A DNA stretch of 64,000 nt from Ruminococcus sp. Lineage in GTDB: Bacteria > Bacillota > Clostridia > Oscillospirales > Ruminococcaceae. This document shows positions 19,061-55,573 of this stretch, in pieces. A program made the position numbers and the translations under genes. The notes under the pieces are model-generated. The model saw nothing but the letters and a program-made list of their open reading frames with translations. It made no database searches and was not told the DNA's origin. Location of the stretch: NCBI RefSeq assembly GCF_024691275.1, contig NZ_JAILNU010000100.1, positions 1-64,000 of the forward strand, in the 5' to 3' direction. Within the stretch, counting starts at the first letter, position 1. Each line of letters starts with the position of its first letter.

Positions 19061-19441
19061 ATGGCTATTACTGAAGCAGTTGAAAATTACCTTGAAACTA
19101 TTCTCATTCTTTCACAGAAACAACCTGACGTTCATGCAATAGACATTTGTTCATATCTGGGCTATTCACGCCCCACAGTTTCCATAATCCTCAAGAAAAT
19201 GAAGGACGAGGGACTTGTAACCGTTGACGGCGATAATCACATCAGACTTACAGATGTTGGAAAGGACGTTGCAGAGCGCATATATGACCGCCATAAGGTA
19301 CTCACCGACTTTTTCACATATCTCGGTGTCAGCCGTGATGTTGCGGCAGAAGATGCCTGCAAGGTCGAGCACGATATCTCTGATGAGACATTCGAGCTTT
19401 TGAGAAAGTATTATGACAAAATTGCCGAAGAGGCAAAATAA
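19061..19441 (+). CDS. DtxR/MntR-family metal-dependent regulator
   Basis: The 126-residue protein opens with the MntR/DtxR-type TEAVENYLETILILSQ helix and a winged helix (IDICSYLGYSRPTVSIILKKMKDEGLVTVDGDNHIRLTDVGKDVA). The dimer/metal region follows: DRHKVLTDFFTYLGVSRDVAAEDACKVEHDIS, with His and Glu/Asp ligands in the usual order. There is no SH3 domain, as in MntR. It probably represses metal-uptake genes when Mn or Fe is plentiful, but no metal transporter is in the window. AAGGAG precedes the ATG. murL starts 20 bases after the stop, so metal-linked control of murL-murD2 is possible. Confidence 0.88.
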   Translation: MAITEAVENYLETILILSQKQPDVHAIDICSYLGYSRPTVSIILKKMKDEGLVTVDGDNHIRLTDVGKDVAERIYDRHKVLTDFFTYLGVSRDVAAEDACKVEHDISDETFELLRKYYDKIAEEAK

Positions 19442-19461: not shown

Positions 19462-20844
19462 ATGGGTAAATATGAATCATTCAGGGAGCAGTATCCCGTT
19501 TTTGTATACAGGTCTTATAAGATAACCGAAACAGACGACAGTATCGAGATAAGCTATGTTTTCGAGTTCCCCGATCTTGCGAAGTTCGAGCCGGGCTGGA
19601 CCTTTAAGAAGCCTGCGGGCTTTACAGCAAAGGGAGATCTAACCTTTGAAAGAATGGCTTTTTCTCTTGGCATGGCTGAGGCAGTAAGCTACTGGAAGGC
19701 TGCCTGTTCTCCTGAGTTCCGCGTTGAATGCGGAGAGCTTGACGATGAACAGATACAGTGGTGGAAGAAGCTATGGTTCATGGGACTTGGCGAGCTTTTC
19801 TTCGTGAACGGTATAAACGCAGACCGTGATACATTTGTGAATATAACTGCAACAGGCAGCTTTGACAGCGCTCTTTCCGAGACAGTTCGTCAGCCAAAGG
19901 GCTGCCTTGTTCCTATCGGCGGCGGAAAGGACTCGGCTCTTACGCTGGAGACCCTTGTCAATGCAGGCATGGAGTGCCGCTGCTACTCTATAAATAAGCG
20001 ACATTCCATAATTGATACGGTCACAACAGCAGGACTTCCCGAGGAGGCGCTGATAATATCTCAGCGTCATTTTGACCGCTCACTGATCGAGCTCAACAAT
20101 AAAGGCTTCATAAACGGTCATACGCCGTTTTCTTCCATAGTTGCCTTTTCGGCAGAGATCACAGCGTATATCAACGGTCTGAAGTATATCGTCCTCTCCA
20201 ATGAGTCCAGTGCCAACGAGAGCACTGTTGTGGGGCAGGAGGTCAACCATCAGTACTCCAAGAGCTTCGAGTTCGAGCAGGATTTCCACAGCTATGAGGA
20301 GAAGTATCTCCATACAGGACAGTATTATTTCAGCTTCCTGCGTCCGCTGGCCGAGTTCCAGATAGCAAAGATGTTCGTATCACACAGGAAGTACCTTCCC
20401 GTGTTCAGAAGCTGCAATCTGGGTAGCAAGGTTTCTCCCGATATATGGTGCGGAGAGTGCCCTAAGTGCCTGTTCGTGAGCCTTATTCTCTCGCCGTTCC
20501 TCAGCCTCAGCGAGCTGAATGATATTTTCGGCAGGGATATGCTCAATGAGCCGAATATGAAGGAGTACTTCATCGAGCTTATCGGACAGTCGGAGCACAA
20601 GCCCTTTGAGTGCGTCGGAAGTATCGACGAGGTCAATTTAGCCGTGTCACTGGCAATACGCAAGCTTGAACGGAACGGCGAAGAACTGCCGCTGCTGTTT
20701 GAGGAATACAAGAATCGCGGACTTTATCACCCTGAGACCATTGACAGTCTCAATGATGAGTGCTGCGGATCATTCAACGAGCAGAATCTGCTGCCCGCCG
20801 AATTCAAGAAAATACTGAAAAAGGAAATGGAGCGTCTGCTTTGA
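19462..20844 (+). CDS. murL: MurL: UDP-MurNAc-L-Ala-L-Glu epimerase
   Basis: The 460-residue protein matches MurL, described in Xanthomonas oryzae. MurL epimerises the terminal L-Glu of UDP-MurNAc-L-Ala-L-Glu to D-Glu, bypassing glutamate racemase. Key segments are VPIGGGKDSALTLE (about 150-163), NGHTPFSSIVAF, LSNESSANES, EVNHQYSKSFEFE, FLRPLAEFQIAKMF and the Cys-rich WCGECPKCLF (about 330-339). It overlaps the next gene by 4 bases; that gene is a Mur ligase of the MurD type, and this pairing is the strongest support. It is cytoplasmic. A ribosome site CGGAGG precedes the ATG. The identification is from remembered family motifs, not a search. Confidence 0.87.
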   Translation: MGKYESFREQYPVFVYRSYKITETDDSIEISYVFEFPDLAKFEPGWTFKKPAGFTAKGDLTFERMAFSLGMAEAVSYWKAACSPEFRVECGELDDEQIQWWKKLWFMGLGELFFVNGINADRDTFVNITATGSFDSALSETVRQPKGCLVPIGGGKDSALTLETLVNAGMECRCYSINKRHSIIDTVTTAGLPEEALIISQRHFDRSLIELNNKGFINGHTPFSSIVAFSAEITAYINGLKYIVLSNESSANESTVVGQEVNHQYSKSFEFEQDFHSYEEKYLHTGQYYFSFLRPLAEFQIAKMFVSHRKYLPVFRSCNLGSKVSPDIWCGECPKCLFVSLILSPFLSLSELNDIFGRDMLNEPNMKEYFIELIGQSEHKPFECVGSIDEVNLAVSLAIRKLERNGEELPLLFEEYKNRGLYHPETIDSLNDECCGSFNEQNLLPAEFKKILKKEMERLL

Positions 20845-22187
20845 ACAAGTTCTGTGAATATGTAAAAAACTACACTGAGGGAAAGAAAATATGTATACTC
20901 GGCTTCGGAAGAGAAGGAAAGTCCACATACAAGATACTGGAGAAGTATTGCTCGCCAAAGTTTGTAGCTATAGCCGACCTGAATCCTGTAGACCGCGAGG
21001 CTAACGGTCTTTCCGAAGATGTGGAGCTTATATGCGGCAAGGACTATCAAGAGTGCCTTGACAGTTTCGATATGGTATTCAAAAGTCCGGGTATCGTTCT
21101 CGAAAAGAAGCTCTCGGAACTTAAATGTCAGATAACCTGTGAAACACAGGTGTTCTTCGAGGTGTACCGCGAGCAGATAATCGGTATCACAGGAACTAAG
21201 GGCAAGAGCACTGTGACTTCGCTCATATATCATGTGCTGAAGGAGAGCGGAGTTGACTGCCGTATCGCAGGAAATATCGGCATACCTGTGTTTGATATAG
21301 CCGAGGGCATGGGCGATGAGACCGTTGTGGTCTGTGAGCTTTCTTGCCACCAGCTTGAGTATATGACAGTTTCTCCGAAATACGCCGTTTTCCTCAATCT
21401 CTACGAGGAGCATCTTGACCACTACGGCACAATGGAGAACTACTACAACGCAAAGAAGAACATATATCTGCATCAGCAGCCCTTTGACGTTCTCTGGTGC
21501 AATGAAGATTTAAGGACCGATGATATGCCGTCTATTGTCATTACAGTATCCGATACTGACGAGAATGCTGATGTATTTGTATCGAACGGCAAAATAATGG
21601 ACGCAGACGGCGATTCCTATGTGATACCTGTTGACAGTATAAAGCTTCTGGGAACTCACAACCATTACAATATAGCTATCGCTTACGGTCTTACGAGCAT
21701 TATGATAGGCGAAGAAGCCTTCACGAAGGCTCTTTGCACATTTGATCCGCTGGCACACCGCCTCGAATATGTGGACACAGTCCGCGGTATACGCTGGTAT
21801 GACGATTCTATCTCTACAGCCTGCGCGACTGCGATATCCGCGCTGAAGAGCGTACCGAATGTGGGAACTATCCTCATAGGCGGTATGGACAGAGGTATCG
21901 ACTATCAGCCGCTTGTGGACTTCCTCGCAGACTTTGACGTAAAGGGCATTTGTATGGAAGCATCGGGCAAGCGCGTGTATGATATGATACAGTCAAGCGG
22001 CAGCTTCAGCAATAAAGACCGAATTCACTATGCAGACCACCTTGAAGACGCAGTGAAGCTTGCTGCGGAGATAACTCCTGAGGGTAAGAGCTGCGTAATG
22101 TCGCCTGCGGCTGCAAGTTACGGAATATTCAAGAATTTTGAGGAGCGCGGCGACGCATTCAAAAAGCTTGTTGCGGAGCTTAAATAA
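20841..22187 (+). CDS. murD2: MurD2-type UDP-MurNAc-L-Ala--glutamate ligase
   Basis: This 448-residue Mur ligase has the N-terminal nucleotide-sugar domain (ICILGFGREGKSTY), the ATP loop GITGTKGKSTV near residue 118, NIGIPV, CELSCHQLE, NLYEEHLDHYG, and the C-terminal GGMDRGIDYQPL and SPAAASYGIFKNFEERGDAF of the MurD group. Next to murL it most likely is MurD2, which adds L-Glu rather than D-Glu to UDP-MurNAc-L-Ala. The start is TTG at 20841, overlapping the murL stop (TTGA), with GGAG at 20829-20832. The dcw cluster of this window has no murD, which fits this gene taking over that step. Confidence 0.88.
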   Translation: MNKFCEYVKNYTEGKKICILGFGREGKSTYKILEKYCSPKFVAIADLNPVDREANGLSEDVELICGKDYQECLDSFDMVFKSPGIVLEKKLSELKCQITCETQVFFEVYREQIIGITGTKGKSTVTSLIYHVLKESGVDCRIAGNIGIPVFDIAEGMGDETVVVCELSCHQLEYMTVSPKYAVFLNLYEEHLDHYGTMENYYNAKKNIYLHQQPFDVLWCNEDLRTDDMPSIVITVSDTDENADVFVSNGKIMDADGDSYVIPVDSIKLLGTHNHYNIAIAYGLTSIMIGEEAFTKALCTFDPLAHRLEYVDTVRGIRWYDDSISTACATAISALKSVPNVGTILIGGMDRGIDYQPLVDFLADFDVKGICMEASGKRVYDMIQSSGSFSNKDRIHYADHLEDAVKLAAEITPEGKSCVMSPAAASYGIFKNFEERGDAFKKLVAELK

Positions 22188-22243: not shown

Positions 22244-22441
22244 ATGAAAGAAAACTTTGAGATCTGTCATTGTATGGGAGTTTCTTACGCTGATGTTGAG
22301 GACGCTCTCCATAATAATGAACAGCTCACAGACGTTGTTGCATTGTTTGACAAGGTGCAGGAAGCTACACACTGCTCGACAGGCTGCGGCGGCTGTCACG
22401 ATGATATAATGAAAGTTATATCAGAAATAATGATGGCATGA
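22244..22441 (+). CDS. BFD-like [2Fe-2S] protein
   Basis: The 65-residue protein has the four-cysteine pattern of bacterioferritin-associated ferredoxin / NifU-middle domains: CHCMGVSYADVEDA at the start and CSTGCGGC about 30 residues later. Such domains bind a [2Fe-2S] cluster and pass electrons, for example in iron release or in oxidoreductases. The ATG at 22244 is chosen because GAGGTGAG precedes it. It lies 56 bases after murD2; the DtxR regulator at the head of the operon would suit an iron link, but this is inference. Confidence 0.8.
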   Translation: MKENFEICHCMGVSYADVEDALHNNEQLTDVVALFDKVQEATHCSTGCGGCHDDIMKVISEIMMA

Positions 22442-35192: not shown

Positions 35193-36611
35193 TTACTTTT
35201 CCTCCGCAAGTTTTTTCAGTATCATTTTAGCTATCTTATAAGCGTCGCCGCAGCCGAGTGTTATCACGAGATCGCCCTCCTGAGCGTGTTCGCATACATA
35301 GTTGCATATCTGCTCAAAATTGGCATATTTGCGCTCGTCTGTCCACTCTGCGGATTCGTCCTGCGGGAACCAGATACAGTTCGGTATCTTTTCAGCAAGG
35401 TGACGTGTGAAGATGCCGTAGGTATTCTTTTCGCGGCTTCCCATGATATCGGTAAGAACTGCGTGATCGGGGATCTGAAGCACTCTTGCGAAGTCATCGA
35501 GCAGGAGCTTTGTGCGTGAGAAGGTGAATGGCTGGAATACTGCCCATACGTGGTTGAAGTTCATCTCCATTGCGGCGTTGAGAGTAGCTTCCAGCTCTGT
35601 GGGGTGGTGAGCGTAGTCGTCAACGACGGTGATGCCCTTCTCGAAGCCCAGCTTCTCGAAACGGCGTTTAGCTCCGCGGAAGTCTTCAAGACCCTGCTGT
35701 ATGAACTTGAAATCAACTCCGACATAACGGGCAGTCGCAACTGCTGCGAGAGAGTTGAGTACATTGTGTATTCCTGCAACATGGAGTGTTACTGTGCCAA
35801 GCTTTTCTCCCTTATACATGGCATCATAAGTGGTGAGGAGACCGTTCTCGTGTTTTACGTTCTCGGGATAGTAATCACAGGAACTGTCCTTACCGAATGT
35901 GATTATCTCCTTGCCGCTTATGCCTTCAAGGGACTTCATTGAGTTTGCATCTGAGCCGTTGACGATAATGCACTTTGAAGTGTTTTCGTTGAATTTATGG
36001 AAGGACTTGATGATATTTTCGAGTGTTCCGAAGTAGTCAAGGTGATCTGCGTCGATATTGAGGATAACGGATATATCAGGGAAGAATTTGAGGAAGTGGT
36101 CTTCAAATTCGCAGGATTCGCATACCATGATATCGCTTTTTCCTGCAACACCGCTGCCGCCGATGCAGGGGAGCTTTCCGCCGATATACGCGGAGAGGTC
36201 AACACCTGCGGTGAAGAGTATCTGTGTTATCATGGAAGTTGTGGAGGTCTTGCCGTGAGTTCCCGAAACGCAGATAGCGTTGTCGTACCAGCTGGTAACG
36301 ATGCCGAGGAGGTCTGCGCGTTCAAGAACGGGGACACCGCTTGCTCTTGCTGCCATAAGCTCGGGATTATCAGCCATGATGGCAGCAGTATGCACGATAA
36401 GGTCTGCTCCCTCGATATTCTCGGCTCTCTGACCGATGAATACAGGTATGCCCATTGTCCTTACAGCGTCAAGAGTCTCGGTCTCGTTGTTGTCCGAGCC
36501 TGTAAGGTAGTAGCCCTGAGAGTGAAGTATCTGGGCGAGGGGGTACATACCCGAACCGCCGATTCCGATAAAATGAATGTGCTTTTTTCCGTTTAAAATA
36601 TTGATATCCAA
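35193..36611 (-). CDS. murC: UDP-N-acetylmuramate--L-alanine ligase
   Basis: MurC adds L-Ala to UDP-MurNAc with ATP, the first amino-acid step of the wall stem peptide. The 472-residue protein has HFIGIGGSGMYPLA at the N-terminus, the ATP loop CVSGTHGKTSTTSMI near residue 107, CESCEFEDHFLKF, NIDADHLDYFG, VVDDYAHHPTELEA near 310 and a C-terminal FQPFTFSRTK. The start is taken as TTG at 36609-36611, 6 bases after AAAGGTG; GTG at 36618-36620 overlaps that ribosome site. It lies outside the dcw cluster, directly upstream of lexA. Confidence 0.94.
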   Translation of the reverse strand: MDINILNGKKHIHFIGIGGSGMYPLAQILHSQGYYLTGSDNNETETLDAVRTMGIPVFIGQRAENIEGADLIVHTAAIMADNPELMAARASGVPVLERADLLGIVTSWYDNAICVSGTHGKTSTTSMITQILFTAGVDLSAYIGGKLPCIGGSGVAGKSDIMVCESCEFEDHFLKFFPDISVILNIDADHLDYFGTLENIIKSFHKFNENTSKCIIVNGSDANSMKSLEGISGKEIITFGKDSSCDYYPENVKHENGLLTTYDAMYKGEKLGTVTLHVAGIHNVLNSLAAVATARYVGVDFKFIQQGLEDFRGAKRRFEKLGFEKGITVVDDYAHHPTELEATLNAAMEMNFNHVWAVFQPFTFSRTKLLLDDFARVLQIPDHAVLTDIMGSREKNTYGIFTRHLAEKIPNCIWFPQDESAEWTDERKYANFEQICNYVCEHAQEGDLVITLGCGDAYKIAKMILKKLAEEK

Positions 36612-36770
36612 AATTATCACCTTTTCTGAATGAGATATTTATGAGATCGGGATAGCTTCCCGAGAATGAACAATGTTTTACAAATGCCTGTACTTAGGCA
36701 GAATTAAAAAATGCCAAGCATAAAACCAATGATTGAGTTAAAAGAATTACGCACTCCACAAAAAAATAGC

Positions 36771-51759: not shown

Positions 51760-53199
51760 ATGAAATTACGCGATCTTATAGAAAATAACGCCGTTACTGC
51801 AATTGGTGATATTGAAATAAGCTCCGTGACCGATGATACGCGCAAGGTGACTGAGGGCAGCCTCTTTGTCTGCGTAAAGGGCGGAAGCTTTGACGGTCAT
51901 ACCGCAGCTGCGGAAATGCTCGAAAAGGGTGCGGCAGCGGTCGTGTGCGAGCGTGACCTCGGACTGGGAGACCGCCAGATAATCACAGACAATTCAAGAA
52001 AGCTCTACGGACAGATATGCTCCGCATGGTTCGGACACCCCGAACGCAAACTGAAAATGATAGGCGTTACAGGTACTAACGGTAAGACTACCATTACTAA
52101 TGTTATAAAGCATATCCTCATGAAGAACGGTCACAAGACAGGTCTTGTGGGAACTATACAGAATGAGATCGGCAATGAGGTCGTCCATACCGATAATACC
52201 ACACCTATGGCTTACGACTTCATGCAGCTTCTCGCAAAAATGGCTGATGCAGGCTGCGAGTATGTGGTAATGGAGGTATCCTCCTTCGGACTGTGCCAGT
52301 ACAGGATAGGCGCTTCATATTTCGATATTGCGGTGTTCACTAACCTTACTCAGGATCACCTCGACTATCACAAGGATATGGAGGAATACTATCAGGCAAA
52401 GAAGATGCTGTTCGATATCTGTGATACGGCAATTATCAATGCAGATGATGACTACGGCAGAAGACTTTACGGTGAAGTTGACTGTAAAAAGCTCAGCTTC
52501 AGCGTCAGGGAAAATGCGGATTTTTATGCAGACGGCATAAAGATAAAGTCAACAGGTTCCAGCTTCTGGTTCTGCAGCGGTGATAAGTCTCACCTTATCA
52601 AGGTGAGAATGCCGGGACTGTTCAATGTCTCGAATATAACGGCTGCAATAGCAGCCTGCCTTGAAGCAGGTCTTAGTATCGACAATATTATCCCCGCTGT
52701 TGAAGAGTACAACGGCGTGAAGGGAAGATGTGAAGTCATTCCGACAGGCAGAGATTTTACCGTTATCTGTGACTATGCTCATACTCCCGATGCAATTGAG
52801 AATATTCTTCGCAGCGTTAAGGAGTATACGGAAAATGACCTGATCTGCCTTTTCGGCTGCGGCGGAAACCGCGATGCTGCAAAGCGCCCGAAAATGGCAA
52901 GAGCAGCAGCAAAATATGCCGATAAGCTCATCGTTACCTCGGATAATCCGCGAAATGAAGACCCCGATGCCATTATCAGGGACATTCTTGCGGGTCTTGA
53001 AGGACAGCAGGTCAACTATGATGTTGTAACCGACAGAAGAGAAGCTATATATCATGCCTTGAAAATTGCTGAGAAAGGTGATATAATAGTACTTGCGGGC
53101 AAGGGACATGAGGATTATCAGATACTTGCCGGCATGGAGCATATCCACTTCGATGAGCGCGAAGTGGTTGCCGATGGTCTTAAATTGCTCGATAAATAA
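51760..53199 (+). CDS. murE: UDP-MurNAc-L-Ala-D-Glu--meso-diaminopimelate ligase MurE
   Basis: MurE adds the third residue of the stem peptide with ATP. The 479-residue protein has DDTRKVTEGSLFVCVKGG at the N-terminus, the ATP loop GVTGTNGKTTITNVI near residue 105, NTTPMAYDFMQLL, EVSSFGLCQYR, FTNLTQDHLDYH and CDYAHTPDAIENIL. The DNPR motif (VTSDNPRNEDP near 395) predicts meso-diaminopimelate, not lysine. CAGGAGG precedes the ATG. It lies between the PBP and mraY genes. Confidence 0.97.
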   Translation: MKLRDLIENNAVTAIGDIEISSVTDDTRKVTEGSLFVCVKGGSFDGHTAAAEMLEKGAAAVVCERDLGLGDRQIITDNSRKLYGQICSAWFGHPERKLKMIGVTGTNGKTTITNVIKHILMKNGHKTGLVGTIQNEIGNEVVHTDNTTPMAYDFMQLLAKMADAGCEYVVMEVSSFGLCQYRIGASYFDIAVFTNLTQDHLDYHKDMEEYYQAKKMLFDICDTAIINADDDYGRRLYGEVDCKKLSFSVRENADFYADGIKIKSTGSSFWFCSGDKSHLIKVRMPGLFNVSNITAAIAACLEAGLSIDNIIPAVEEYNGVKGRCEVIPTGRDFTVICDYAHTPDAIENILRSVKEYTENDLICLFGCGGNRDAAKRPKMARAAAKYADKLIVTSDNPRNEDPDAIIRDILAGLEGQQVNYDVVTDRREAIYHALKIAEKGDIIVLAGKGHEDYQILAGMEHIHFDEREVVADGLKLLDK

Positions 53200-53222: not shown

Positions 53223-54260
53223 ATGTCTTTCTGGGTAATTAATCTTGTCACAGCACTTCTTTCATTCGTGATAGCAGGAGTTTCGGGTATATTCCTTGTA
53301 CCGTTCCTGCATAAGATAAAATTCGGTCAGCCTATCAAGACTGAGGACGGCCCTAAGTGGCACGCCAAAAAACAGGGAACTCCCACAATGGGCGGCTTCA
53401 TGTTCATAATCTCAACGATCATAACCGCTATTGCAGGATACTGGATATACAGGTGGAAAACAGGGATAGATACCACTGACAGCGAAAGCTTCAAGATGTT
53501 CTACCGCCTTCTCAGCTGTATAATATTTGCCGCTTCATTCGGATTCCTCGGATTTATTGATGACTATAAAAAGGTTGCCCAGAAGAAAAATGACGGTCTT
53601 ACACCGTGGCAGAAAATAGCCATACAGGTAATATGCGGCGGAGGGTTCCTCTTTGCGATAAGATACTTTGGAGATAAGTCAACAAAAATCGACTTAGGTT
53701 TCTGGAGTACGCCTTCCCTGGGGATATTCTACTATATCCTTATGATGCTTGTGATAATATACCTTACAAATGCGGTTAATCTCACAGACGGAGTTGATGG
53801 TCTGTGCGGTTCGGTAACATTTGTGGCTATGCTGATATTCACAGTATGCTGCTCGATACTCAAACAGAATGAGATGACCTGCTATACCATGGCACTGGCA
53901 GGAGGCTGCCTTGGCTTCCTCCTGTGGAACCTCAACCCTGCAAAATGCTTCATGGGCGATACGGGTTCTATGTTCCTCGGCGCTTCTGTTACAGCTATCA
54001 GTCTTATTCTTCATAAGCATCTGCTTATGATACTTGTTGCTCTTGTTTACATCATCGAGGCACTCTCCGTTGTTATACAGGTAAGCTACTTCAAGTATAC
54101 AAAGAAGAAGTACGGAGAGGGCAGACGTATATTCAAGATGACTCCTATCCACCACCATTTTGAAATGAGCGGATTCAGTGAGTACAAAATAGTGATAACT
54201 TTTTCGCTCTGCGGCATTATTTTCGGAGTTCTGGGAATAATTACACTGCTGGCATTCTGA
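53223..54260 (+). CDS. mraY: Phospho-N-acetylmuramoyl-pentapeptide transferase MraY
   Basis: MraY moves phospho-MurNAc-pentapeptide to undecaprenyl phosphate in the membrane, giving lipid I. The 345-residue protein has about ten helices, KWHAKKQGTPTMGGFMFI near residue 45, GFIDDYKKVAQKKNDGLTPWQKI with the Asp pair near 117, NAVNLTDGVDGLCG near 185, FMGDTGSMFLGA near 243 and the MTPIHHHFEMSG end. GGAGTTG precedes the ATG. The next gene is ftsW after 35 bases; the usual murD is missing between them. Confidence 0.97.
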   Translation: MSFWVINLVTALLSFVIAGVSGIFLVPFLHKIKFGQPIKTEDGPKWHAKKQGTPTMGGFMFIISTIITAIAGYWIYRWKTGIDTTDSESFKMFYRLLSCIIFAASFGFLGFIDDYKKVAQKKNDGLTPWQKIAIQVICGGGFLFAIRYFGDKSTKIDLGFWSTPSLGIFYYILMMLVIIYLTNAVNLTDGVDGLCGSVTFVAMLIFTVCCSILKQNEMTCYTMALAGGCLGFLLWNLNPAKCFMGDTGSMFLGASVTAISLILHKHLLMILVALVYIIEALSVVIQVSYFKYTKKKYGEGRRIFKMTPIHHHFEMSGFSEYKIVITFSLCGIIFGVLGIITLLAF

Positions 54261-54295: not shown

Positions 54296-55573
54296 ATGGC
54301 TGCAAGCAATACTGAAAATAAAAAGCGTCCTGTATTCAGAAACGTGGTTTCCGGAGGCAGACGCGGAGATATAAGTCTGTCATTCTTTGCTTATGTAATG
54401 ATACTGCTTGTAGTCGGTATCGTTATGATGTCCTCGGCAAGCTATGCGTGGGCATACAGTGAGCACGGCGGTGACGGACTGTACTATGCTAAGAATCAGG
54501 CGAAGAATGCTGTTATCGGCTTCATCGCTATGATTTTTTTCATGAGACTGGATTATCACAATTTCAAGAACCTGAAAATACCTATGCTGAAAAAACTGAA
54601 TATTGCAAGCCTGTTTTATATCATAGGAGCTGTGCTGCTTATAGCCGTTCTTCTTATCGGTAACGATGAGGGCGGTTCTATGGGAGCTCGCCGCTGGATA
54701 GACATAGGCCCGCTCAACCTTCAGCCTTCTGAGGTGGCAAAGCTGGCACTTATCATATTCTTTGCCTACAGCATGGAGCGCGACGGAAAGAAAATGGATA
54801 CCTTTATGACAGGTGTTGTGAAATATGCCTGCATCATGGGCTTGTATGTGCTGCTCATAGCGCTTGAAAGGCACATTTCAGGTATCATGCTTATCGGCAC
54901 CATAGCGGTTGCAATGATGCTCTGCGGCGGTGTCAACAGGAAACATTTCATTGCACTGGGCGCAAGTGCGATCGGTCTTGCGATAGCGTATGTCTCGTGG
55001 CAGGCGCAGATTCCCGGAAGTTACGTAAGTGTGCGTATAAAGTCATGGGATAATCCGTTCGCTGATAAGCTGGGCGATACATGGCAGACTGCAAACTCAC
55101 TCATCGCTATTGGTTCGGGCGGACTTTTCGGTCTCGGTCTCGGAAACTCACGTCAGAAGTATCTCTATCTCCCTGAGACAAAGAACGACTTCGTTTTCCC
55201 TATAGTTTGCGAGGAGCTTGGCTATGTGGGAGCACTGGCGATAATTATTGTATTCTTCCTTCTCGTTGTGGAAGGTTATTCTATAGCTGTACGCTGCAAG
55301 GATCGTTTCGGTATGCTCATCGCTGTTGGTATCACTACACAGATAGGCATACAGACAGTTCTTAACCTTGCCGTTGTCAGCAATCTGATACCTAATACCG
55401 GTATCAGTCTGCCGTTTTTCAGCTACGGCGGTACTGCACTTATAATGCAGCTTGCAGAAATGGGCATAATGTTGAATATCTCACAGCACAGGTATTATCC
55501 TGATGAAAAGCCCAAGATCCAAAAGAAGAAAAGGCAGAAGCAGATAAATGAAGCTGAGCCAAAAGGAGCATAA
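54296..55573 (+). CDS. ftsW: SEDS-family peptidoglycan polymerase FtsW
   Basis: This integral membrane glycosyltransferase polymerises lipid II at the septum with its partner PBP. The 425-residue protein has about ten membrane helices and the SEDS features: GARRWIDIGPLNLQPSEVAKLALIIFFA near residue 125, SYVSVRIKSWDNPFADKLGDTWQT, ALIAIGSGGLFGLGLGNSRQKYLYLPETKNDFVFPI near 270, and ISLPFFSYGGTALI near 372. AGGAGG precedes the ATG. It directly precedes murG by 2 bases. Elongation SEDS (RodA) is less likely from its place in dcw. Confidence 0.95.
   Translation: MAASNTENKKRPVFRNVVSGGRRGDISLSFFAYVMILLVVGIVMMSSASYAWAYSEHGGDGLYYAKNQAKNAVIGFIAMIFFMRLDYHNFKNLKIPMLKKLNIASLFYIIGAVLLIAVLLIGNDEGGSMGARRWIDIGPLNLQPSEVAKLALIIFFAYSMERDGKKMDTFMTGVVKYACIMGLYVLLIALERHISGIMLIGTIAVAMMLCGGVNRKHFIALGASAIGLAIAYVSWQAQIPGSYVSVRIKSWDNPFADKLGDTWQTANSLIAIGSGGLFGLGLGNSRQKYLYLPETKNDFVFPIVCEELGYVGALAIIIVFFLLVVEGYSIAVRCKDRFGMLIAVGITTQIGIQTVLNLAVVSNLIPNTGISLPFFSYGGTALIMQLAEMGIMLNISQHRYYPDEKPKIQKKKRQKQINEAEPKGA

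Follow-up and report, generated by a model that had tools for sequence, protein, structure and literature searches.

The window analysed here, the whole 64,000-nucleotide stretch from position 1 to 64,000 on the forward strand of contig NZ_JAILNU010000100.1 (GCF_024691275.1), carries a murL-murD2 gene pair that very probably forms a MurL/MurD2 route to peptidoglycan D-glutamate (D-Glu), and most likely the sole such route in the organism. The source genome, that of a rumen or gut bacterium, is a Ruminococcus flavefaciens-like draft of 3.41 Mb in 117 contigs that is 93.4% complete. Gene content, specificity residues, the clade of the ligase and mutual exclusion with glutamate racemase (MurI) were all established in this analysis and support the claim of a preliminary description of this DNA that this Clostridial lineage uses the MurL/MurD2 route. 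The reactions themselves would be those known from Xanthomonas, carried over to the window organism by homology. MurL and MurD2 have been described in Xanthomonas oryzae (XOO_1319/XOO_1320), with assays in Micromonospora sp. and Salinispora tropica as well (PMC8788868). The features of the pair are as follows.

19462..20844, + strand: murL, 460 residues (NF041275, E 3.8e-72; about 35% identity to Xanthomonas sacchari MurL)
19918..19935, + strand: GGGKDS, a PP-loop-like ATP motif at MurL residues 153-158 (alignment of 116 MurLs)
20413..20469, + strand: CN ... WCGECPKC four-cysteine motif of MurL (C318, C330, C333 and C336), a predicted metal site (alignment of 116 MurLs; hhalign to the QueC cysteine motif, weak score)
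20841..22187, + strand: murD2, 448 residues, TTG start (TIGR01087, 324 bits, cut-off 212; MurD2-type residues; MurD2 clade)
21408..21410, + strand: codon of MurD2 E190, at the position of Escherichia coli D182 and X. oryzae E197 (alignment; role per PMC8788868)
21891..21893, + strand: codon of MurD2 R351, at the position of E. coli K348 and X. oryzae R358 (alignment; role per PMC8788868)

In the proposed route, MurC would add L-Ala to UDP-N-acetylmuramic acid, after which MurD2 would add L-Glu rather than D-Glu at the cost of one adenosine triphosphate (ATP). MurL would then adenylate the alpha-carboxyl group of the added L-Glu, converting ATP to adenosine monophosphate (AMP), and thereby loosen the alpha-proton. 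A QueC-like PP-loop domain together with the four-cysteine metal site may carry out this chemistry, and the four-base overlap between the genes may couple the translation of MurL and MurD2. In two reviews, MurL is described as an enzyme that converts ATP to AMP, acts one way only and has no known domains, and substrate adenylation is given as the reviews' own hypothesis (PMC8788868, PMC5808125).

The preliminary description had proposed searching the whole genome for other means of making and using D-Glu. No match to PF01177 or to TIGR00067, the model for MurI, was observed in the 93%-complete genome, and each of these models was matched in 10 of 14 control genomes. One MurD was found over the TIGR01087 cut-off, the three other matches being MurE, MurC and MurT. 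The sole PF01063 protein is ilvE and no D-amino-acid transaminase (Dat) was found among the PF01063 matches; the protein scores 494 bits against NF009897 (branched-chain aminotransferase, cut-off 307) and only 47 bits against TIGR01121 (cut-off 277).

The same pattern was observed in relatives of the organism. In the window's family, NF041275 matches were found in 19 of 197 genomes from 10 genera, all under the model cut-off, and MurI over the TIGR00067 cut-off was present in none of these 19 genomes whereas it was present in 163 of the 178 others. In a draw of 391 genomes from the class, MurL was found in 16 genomes from nine families, of which 14 were new relative to the family set; MurI over the cut-off was present in 0 of these 14 and in 38 of 41 MurL-negative genomes. 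The TIGR00067 screen covered all 197 family genomes and 41 genomes picked from the 375 MurL-negative genomes of the class. Pooled, MurI over the cut-off occurs in 0/33 MurL genomes and in 201/219 others (Fisher p ~1e-28, with the reservation that related genomes are not independent). A MurI that is present in the organism and was missed by the draft assembly, with the pair being accessory or silent, would fit a genome that is incomplete and broken into many contigs. The absence of MurI is repeated in 33 genomes and chance loss from a draft is therefore unlikely; MurI is also missing in two genomes of the same genus, G019 (100% complete) and G135 (98%), no other MurL genome tested has a MurI over the cut-off, and the window genome has no second murD. 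A missed MurI is thus most improbable. Here and below, G numbers denote genomes and L numbers denote loci.

Weak TIGR00067 matches were observed in 8 of the 19 family MurL genomes and in 2 of the 14 from the class (E 2.6e-4 to 1.3e-9). They fall under the cut-off and were rejected as MurI. In the eight family genomes they are read as proteins of the aspartate-racemase type from their strong PF01177 matches (E 1.8e-29 to 8e-42). The sole PF01177 match of G096 is at E 2.2e-4.

PF01063 matched a single protein in every one of the 19 family MurL genomes, encoded by a frame of 357-440 residues, which is an ilvE-like length; the proteins of G167 and G015 are 79% and 57% identical to the window's protein (BLAST). 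Seven of the 14 class MurL genomes have a match (six of 358-379 residues and one contig-end fragment) and seven have none. None of the other MurL genomes screened showed a Dat-like protein, length being the main criterion by which their PF01063 matches were classed. Among genomes with neither MurI nor MurL, Dat-like proteins were found in G003, G125 and G098 (TIGR01121 226-233 bits, below the cut-off of 277) and the family thus seems to employ a third D-Glu supply. PF01063 proteins were looked at in only six MurI-bearing genomes (G002, G013, G060, G199, G202 and G222), where all are of ilvE length, and this hardly tests an exclusion between MurI and Dat. Three genomes, G072 (99% complete), G194 (93%) and G201 (0.9 Mb, 100%), have a canonical MurD and no detected MurI, MurL or Dat-like protein, and would be either D-Glu auxotrophs or users of an unknown route; G194 was counted as lacking a TIGR00067 match by elimination. 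G208 (83% complete, no MurI and no MurL) has two PF01063 matches.

The ligase of the window carries E190 and R351 at the positions of X. oryzae E197 and R358, and X. sacchari MurD2 has the same two residues. The double change E197D/R358K switches X. oryzae MurD2 from the use of L-Glu to that of D-Glu (PMC8788868). Glutamate at the D182 position was found in 31 of the 33 MurDs of MurL genomes as compared with 0 of 40 canonical MurDs, and arginine at the K348 position in all 33 as compared with one of the 40 (G202), the canonical MurDs being taken from genomes without MurL or being second copies. The murD genes of G108 and G188 are not linked to murL and their products carry E and R, which indicates that the residues track the presence of MurL and not the neighbourhood. 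Position I319 (E. coli numbering) was dropped as a marker for L-Glu since isoleucine also occurs there in 34 of the 40 canonical MurDs. The G202 gene with R at the K348 position (locus L101, contig C11 2399-4478) is a canonical murD convergent with an adjoining murI, and G202 shares its genus with the MurL genome G430.

In a tree of 75 MurDs, X. sacchari MurD2 groups with all 33 ligases from MurL genomes in a single clade whose Shimodaira-Hasegawa-like approximate likelihood ratio test (SH-aLRT) support is 98. The sister clade (SH-aLRT 99) holds 34 of the 41 canonical MurDs, including all 17 of the window's family, and the remaining seven fall outside both clades. This was a single run of a quick method with X. 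sacchari as the only non-Clostridial MurD2, and the placement of Xanthomonas is unsure because of its long branch and the quick method. A single MurD2 clade means that the pair was most likely inherited or moved as a unit and did not re-evolve locally from a resident MurD. For G295, both the residue counts and the tree used L131, a piece on another contig, instead of a MurD fragment of 133 residues (L086).

The two genes were found to be neighbours in 31 of the 33 MurL genomes, in one of them as a fusion. In the family, murD directly follows murL in 17 of 19 genomes, the exceptions being G108 and G188 of genus g108, and in the class it does so in 14 of 14, with the pair of G295 cut by a contig end. 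Of the 80 best-ranking named loci in GTDB species genomes, 77 have murD2 after murL (the exceptions are L182, L183 and L186), with murD2 in two pieces in L188; some named loci derive from assemblies that also bear a G number (for example L155/G019 and L222/G295) and these counts are not independent. The fusion, in G220 (locus L082, 4475-7534, + strand), is a single 1019-codon frame in which MurL precedes MurD, and its MurD half carries E and R at the specificity positions. In the window the four-base overlap noticed in the preliminary description was borne out as TTGA at 20841-20844, where the TTG start of murD overlaps the stop codon of murL. Of 18 Ruminococcus-clade loci (L146-L162 and L205, MurL identity of 68% or more), 16 have TTGA at the overlap and two have GTGA. 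As the overlap is kept across these loci and a dtxR-type gene lies upstream in every one of them, the arrangement goes beyond chance.

The MurL of the window matches positions 45-391 of the 447-position NF041275 profile with 243 bits. This NCBIfam MurL model is named for Xanthomonadales and has a cut-off of 700 bits, and X. sacchari MurL scores 836. The MurL of Ruminococcus flavefaciens Y1 is 84% identical to that of the window. In the alignment with the MurL family, GGGKDS and WCxxCxKC, the regions pointed out in the preliminary description (the second as WCxxCPKC), align with those of X. sacchari MurL and are conserved in 116 aligned MurLs (103 once rows more than 90% identical are dropped). 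Neither outcome that the preliminary description named as refuting, a canonical murD plus murI elsewhere in the genome (93% complete as searched) or a failed alignment at these regions, was observed. Within GGGKDS, the GGG and DS are identical throughout while K156 is lysine in 114 sequences and arginine in two, and each of the four motif cysteines is present in 116/116. The invariant segments are GGG, DS, NHQ-x-SK, SCN, W-C-x2-C-x-K-C and KP-x2-C. A PDB sequence search with MurL found no relative (best E 0.22).

Several observations weigh against the MurL/MurD2 route being used, or being the only one. The route in the window organism is predicted from its genes, and with the genome 93% complete one gene could be missing by chance. 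The MurL scores far under its 700-bit model cut-off, a threshold that no MurL genome reached in either the family or the class search, and it is only about 35% identical to X. sacchari MurL (324 residues, E 1e-51). Among the relatives, PF01177 was screened in genomes of the family, and the 14 class MurL genomes were judged by TIGR00067. Two of the 33 MurDs of MurL genomes (G167 and G505) have D in place of E; the two are sisters in the tree, which suggests one change. The window MurD2 has A and Y at the positions of X. oryzae P433 and F435, where X. sacchari has P and F; P433A and F435L left the stereospecificity of MurD2 unchanged (PMC8788868). Copies of murD at E 1e-50 or better number one in 29 of the 33 MurL genomes and two in four, and these four (G225, G258 and G378 of genus g164, and G430 of genus g141) keep a second, canonical MurD with N and K residues. 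These four genomes yielded neither a Dat-like protein nor any MurI match, whether above or below the cut-off, and the eight proteins scanned next to the second murD in G225 and G430 include no D-Glu-making enzyme.

The last observation suits an explanation in which the ligase of the pair is an ordinary MurD that uses D-Glu, MurL acts elsewhere, for example on another peptide, and D-Glu is supplied by a racemase that escaped detection or from outside. G072, G194 and G201 show in the same way that some source of D-Glu may escape the models, and MurL-like genes without a murD neighbour are found on Pseudonocardia plasmids. An ordinary MurD is nevertheless hard to reconcile with the E and R residues of the window, the MurD2 clade, the linkage in 31/33 genomes, the fusion protein and the 0/33 co-occurrence with MurI, and we consider this explanation very unlikely. 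The MurL/MurD2 route remains the preferred reading of the pair.

MurL and QueC were observed to share GGG-x-DS/SGG-x-DS followed by C-x(n)-C-x2-C-x2-C, in the same order. The [SG]GG-x-DS and four-cysteine patterns are both present in 116/116 MurLs, and in QueC they occur in 89/89 and 71/89 sequences respectively; the spacing n ranges from 9 to 15 in MurL and, across the 71 matching QueC sequences, from 7 to 20. MurL differs from QueC in its additional N-terminal stretch and in the KPFECVG segment that follows the cysteine motif. An hhalign comparison aligned MurL 147-338 with QueC 3-205 (of 231), nearly the whole domain, with both motifs in register. Its score was 27.0 (probability 4.8%), as compared with a best of 27.8 and a mean of 16.5 for 60 column-shuffled controls, 21.9 for a reversed profile and 22.3 for MurD; taken by itself, this score is not significant. 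When smaller alignments were compared, the match shrank to 31 columns at the PP-loop (probability 12.5%). Out of 23 MurLs, only one lies above the Pfam QueC gathering threshold (22.4 against 22) and X. sacchari MurL has no QueC match; DUF6395 is matched by 22 of the 23, mostly weakly. QueC carries out an ATP-dependent activation of a carboxyl group, and the conversion of ATP to AMP fits PP-loop enzymes.

The resemblance of MurL to QueC-type PP-loop enzymes is only suggestive, and a QueC-like MurL is on balance probable. If MurL is such an epimerase, carboxyl adenylation would serve a one-way flip through the alpha-proton and not the formation of an amide or nitrile. The other view of the fold is that MurL has no PP-loop and that GGGKDS and the cysteine motifs resemble QueC by chance in an unrelated fold, which would leave the pathway untouched. 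The hhalign score below the shuffled best, the 31-column alignment, the single Pfam QueC match and the absence of known domains stated in the reviews (PMC8788868, PMC5808125) all agree with this view, while the near full-length hhalign path that places the PP-loop and the cysteine motif in register speaks against it. The ATP to AMP conversion described for MurL, which suits a PP-loop enzyme, also counts against a chance likeness. We regard an unrelated fold as possible rather than probable.

The other features of the window that concern this pathway or flank the pair are as follows.

19061..19441, + strand: DtxR/MntR-type metal-dependent regulator gene at the operon head (Pfam Fe_dep_repress and Fe_dep_repr_C over cut-off; NCBIfam MntR below cut-off)
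22244..22441, + strand: small BFD-like [2Fe-2S] protein downstream of murD2 (PF04324, 43 bits; open reading frame taken from 22199)
35193..36620, - strand: murC, for the step preceding MurD2 (TIGR01082, 402 bits)
51760..53199, + strand: murE in the dcw cluster, for the step following MurL (NF001126, 578 bits)
53223..54260, + strand: mraY in the dcw cluster, with ftsW directly after it (TIGR00445, 262 bits)
54296..55573, + strand: ftsW/spoVE-type gene in the dcw cluster, with no murD between mraY and ftsW (TIGR02615, 333 bits, and TIGR02614, 325 bits, both below cut-off)

The dcw layout given in the preliminary description is correct, with 35 bases between the end of mraY at 54260 and the start of ftsW at 54296. 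Its use of the missing murD as evidence for a switch of route fails, since murD lies between mraY and ftsW in only 5 of 40 canonical loci (L099, L100, L104, L106 and L118) and lies elsewhere in all 17 canonical loci of the window's family, 12 of which are MurI-bearing. In this survey, tblastn with the window proteins was applied to 43 MurD-centred loci (L099-L141), of which L129-L131 hold MurD2 and leave the 40 canonical ones; most of the loci reach only about 1.5 kb or less per side.

The operon runs in the order dtxR-like gene, murL and murD2, after which comes the small BFD-like open reading frame. The regulator at its head, described earlier as an oddity, is real and conserved, and it is local to the Ruminococcus clade and not a feature of the pathway. 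It lies upstream of murL in 18/18 Ruminococcus-clade loci (in two pieces in L156) as compared with 0 of the 62 other named loci, some of which hold less than 1 kb upstream of murL. In the family set it is present in the three genomes of the window's genus and not in the 16 others, of which G082 has only 241 upstream bases. The BFD-like open reading frame follows murD2 in one of the 80 best-ranked named loci (L149) and its membership of the operon is doubtful.

The window system shares with that of Xanthomonas the order murL then murD2 with an overlap (as in X. sacchari), the GGGKDS and WCGxCPKC motifs, the E and R residues, and the fact that no MurI or D-transaminase was found. It differs in its modest MurL identity, in the A and Y for P433 and F435, in the DtxR-type gene upstream and in its host, a Clostridial anaerobe; the X. 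sacchari pair instead follows an aspartate kinase/diaminopimelate decarboxylase gene and a hypothetical gene. With the canonical MurI and MurD route, the window shares the MurD family and the P-loop lysine (K122 in its MurD2), whereas it has no detected MurI, a ligase of a separate clade, and E and R where canonical MurDs mostly have N or D and K. The Dat route is an alternative way of making D-Glu in relatives and no Dat protein was seen in the window genome.

MurL is not confined to a single Clostridial lineage: it occurs in nine families of the class, and at least 580 stretches with MurL relatives were found in GTDB species genomes. Among the best 80 of these, which were named, the record titles include Ruminococcus flavefaciens, Pseudobutyrivibrio and other Lachnospiraceae as well as metagenome-assembled genomes labelled Erysipelotrichales, Bacilli and Bacteroidales, labels which can be wrong for such assemblies. 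Previous descriptions of the route come from a few proteobacteria and actinobacteria, and Clostridia are not mentioned as bearers of MurL in the parts of the two reviews available to us (PMC8788868, PMC5808125).

MurL genes were also observed on replicons of other kinds. The X. sacchari murL-murD2 pair lies on a replicon of 509 kb that is entered as a plasmid (NZ_CP010410.1, locus L226), which places an apparently essential pair outside the main chromosome record. Three Pseudonocardia plasmids (NZ_CP052772.1, NZ_CP010991.1 and NZ_CP011869.1; L227, L228 and L333) carry MurL-like genes annotated as hypothetical with no murD annotated beside them. Two of these genes are convergent with a WD40-repeat gene, and the L227 protein matches NF041275 with 323 bits. 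A record of 8.9 kb from human faeces titled 'Bacteriophage sp.' (MT836755.1) encodes a MurL that shares 42.6% identity with that of the window across 99% of the length; this unannotated record, the only one from a phage collection, may be a mis-sorted bacterial contig. A broader picture would join these observations: MurL as a QueC-like PP-loop epimerase with a four-cysteine metal site, DtxR tying this wall step to metal supply in Ruminococcus, and the MurL-like proteins without murD, such as those of the Pseudonocardia plasmids, flipping glutamate or other residues in other peptides. Taken together, we think this combination unlikely.

The reactions, the gene order and the logic of a missing MurI are already known from Xanthomonas. 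As far as can be judged from the parts of the literature available to us, what is apparently new is the presence of MurL in many Clostridia (and in metagenome-assembled genomes labelled Bacilli and Bacteroidales), the fusion, the quantified exclusion of MurI and the suggestion of a QueC-like enzyme. If true, the last would be the first mechanistic home for MurL. The exclusion between MurL and MurI yields a rule by which D-Glu supply can be predicted from gene content, with a few genomes that fit no known supply. One of the two reviews (PMC8788868, PMC5808125) sees the route as confined to a relatively small number of genera and suggests it as a narrow-spectrum drug target. If the route works in the organisms described here, inhibitors of MurD2 or MurL would also hit commensals of the gut and rumen.

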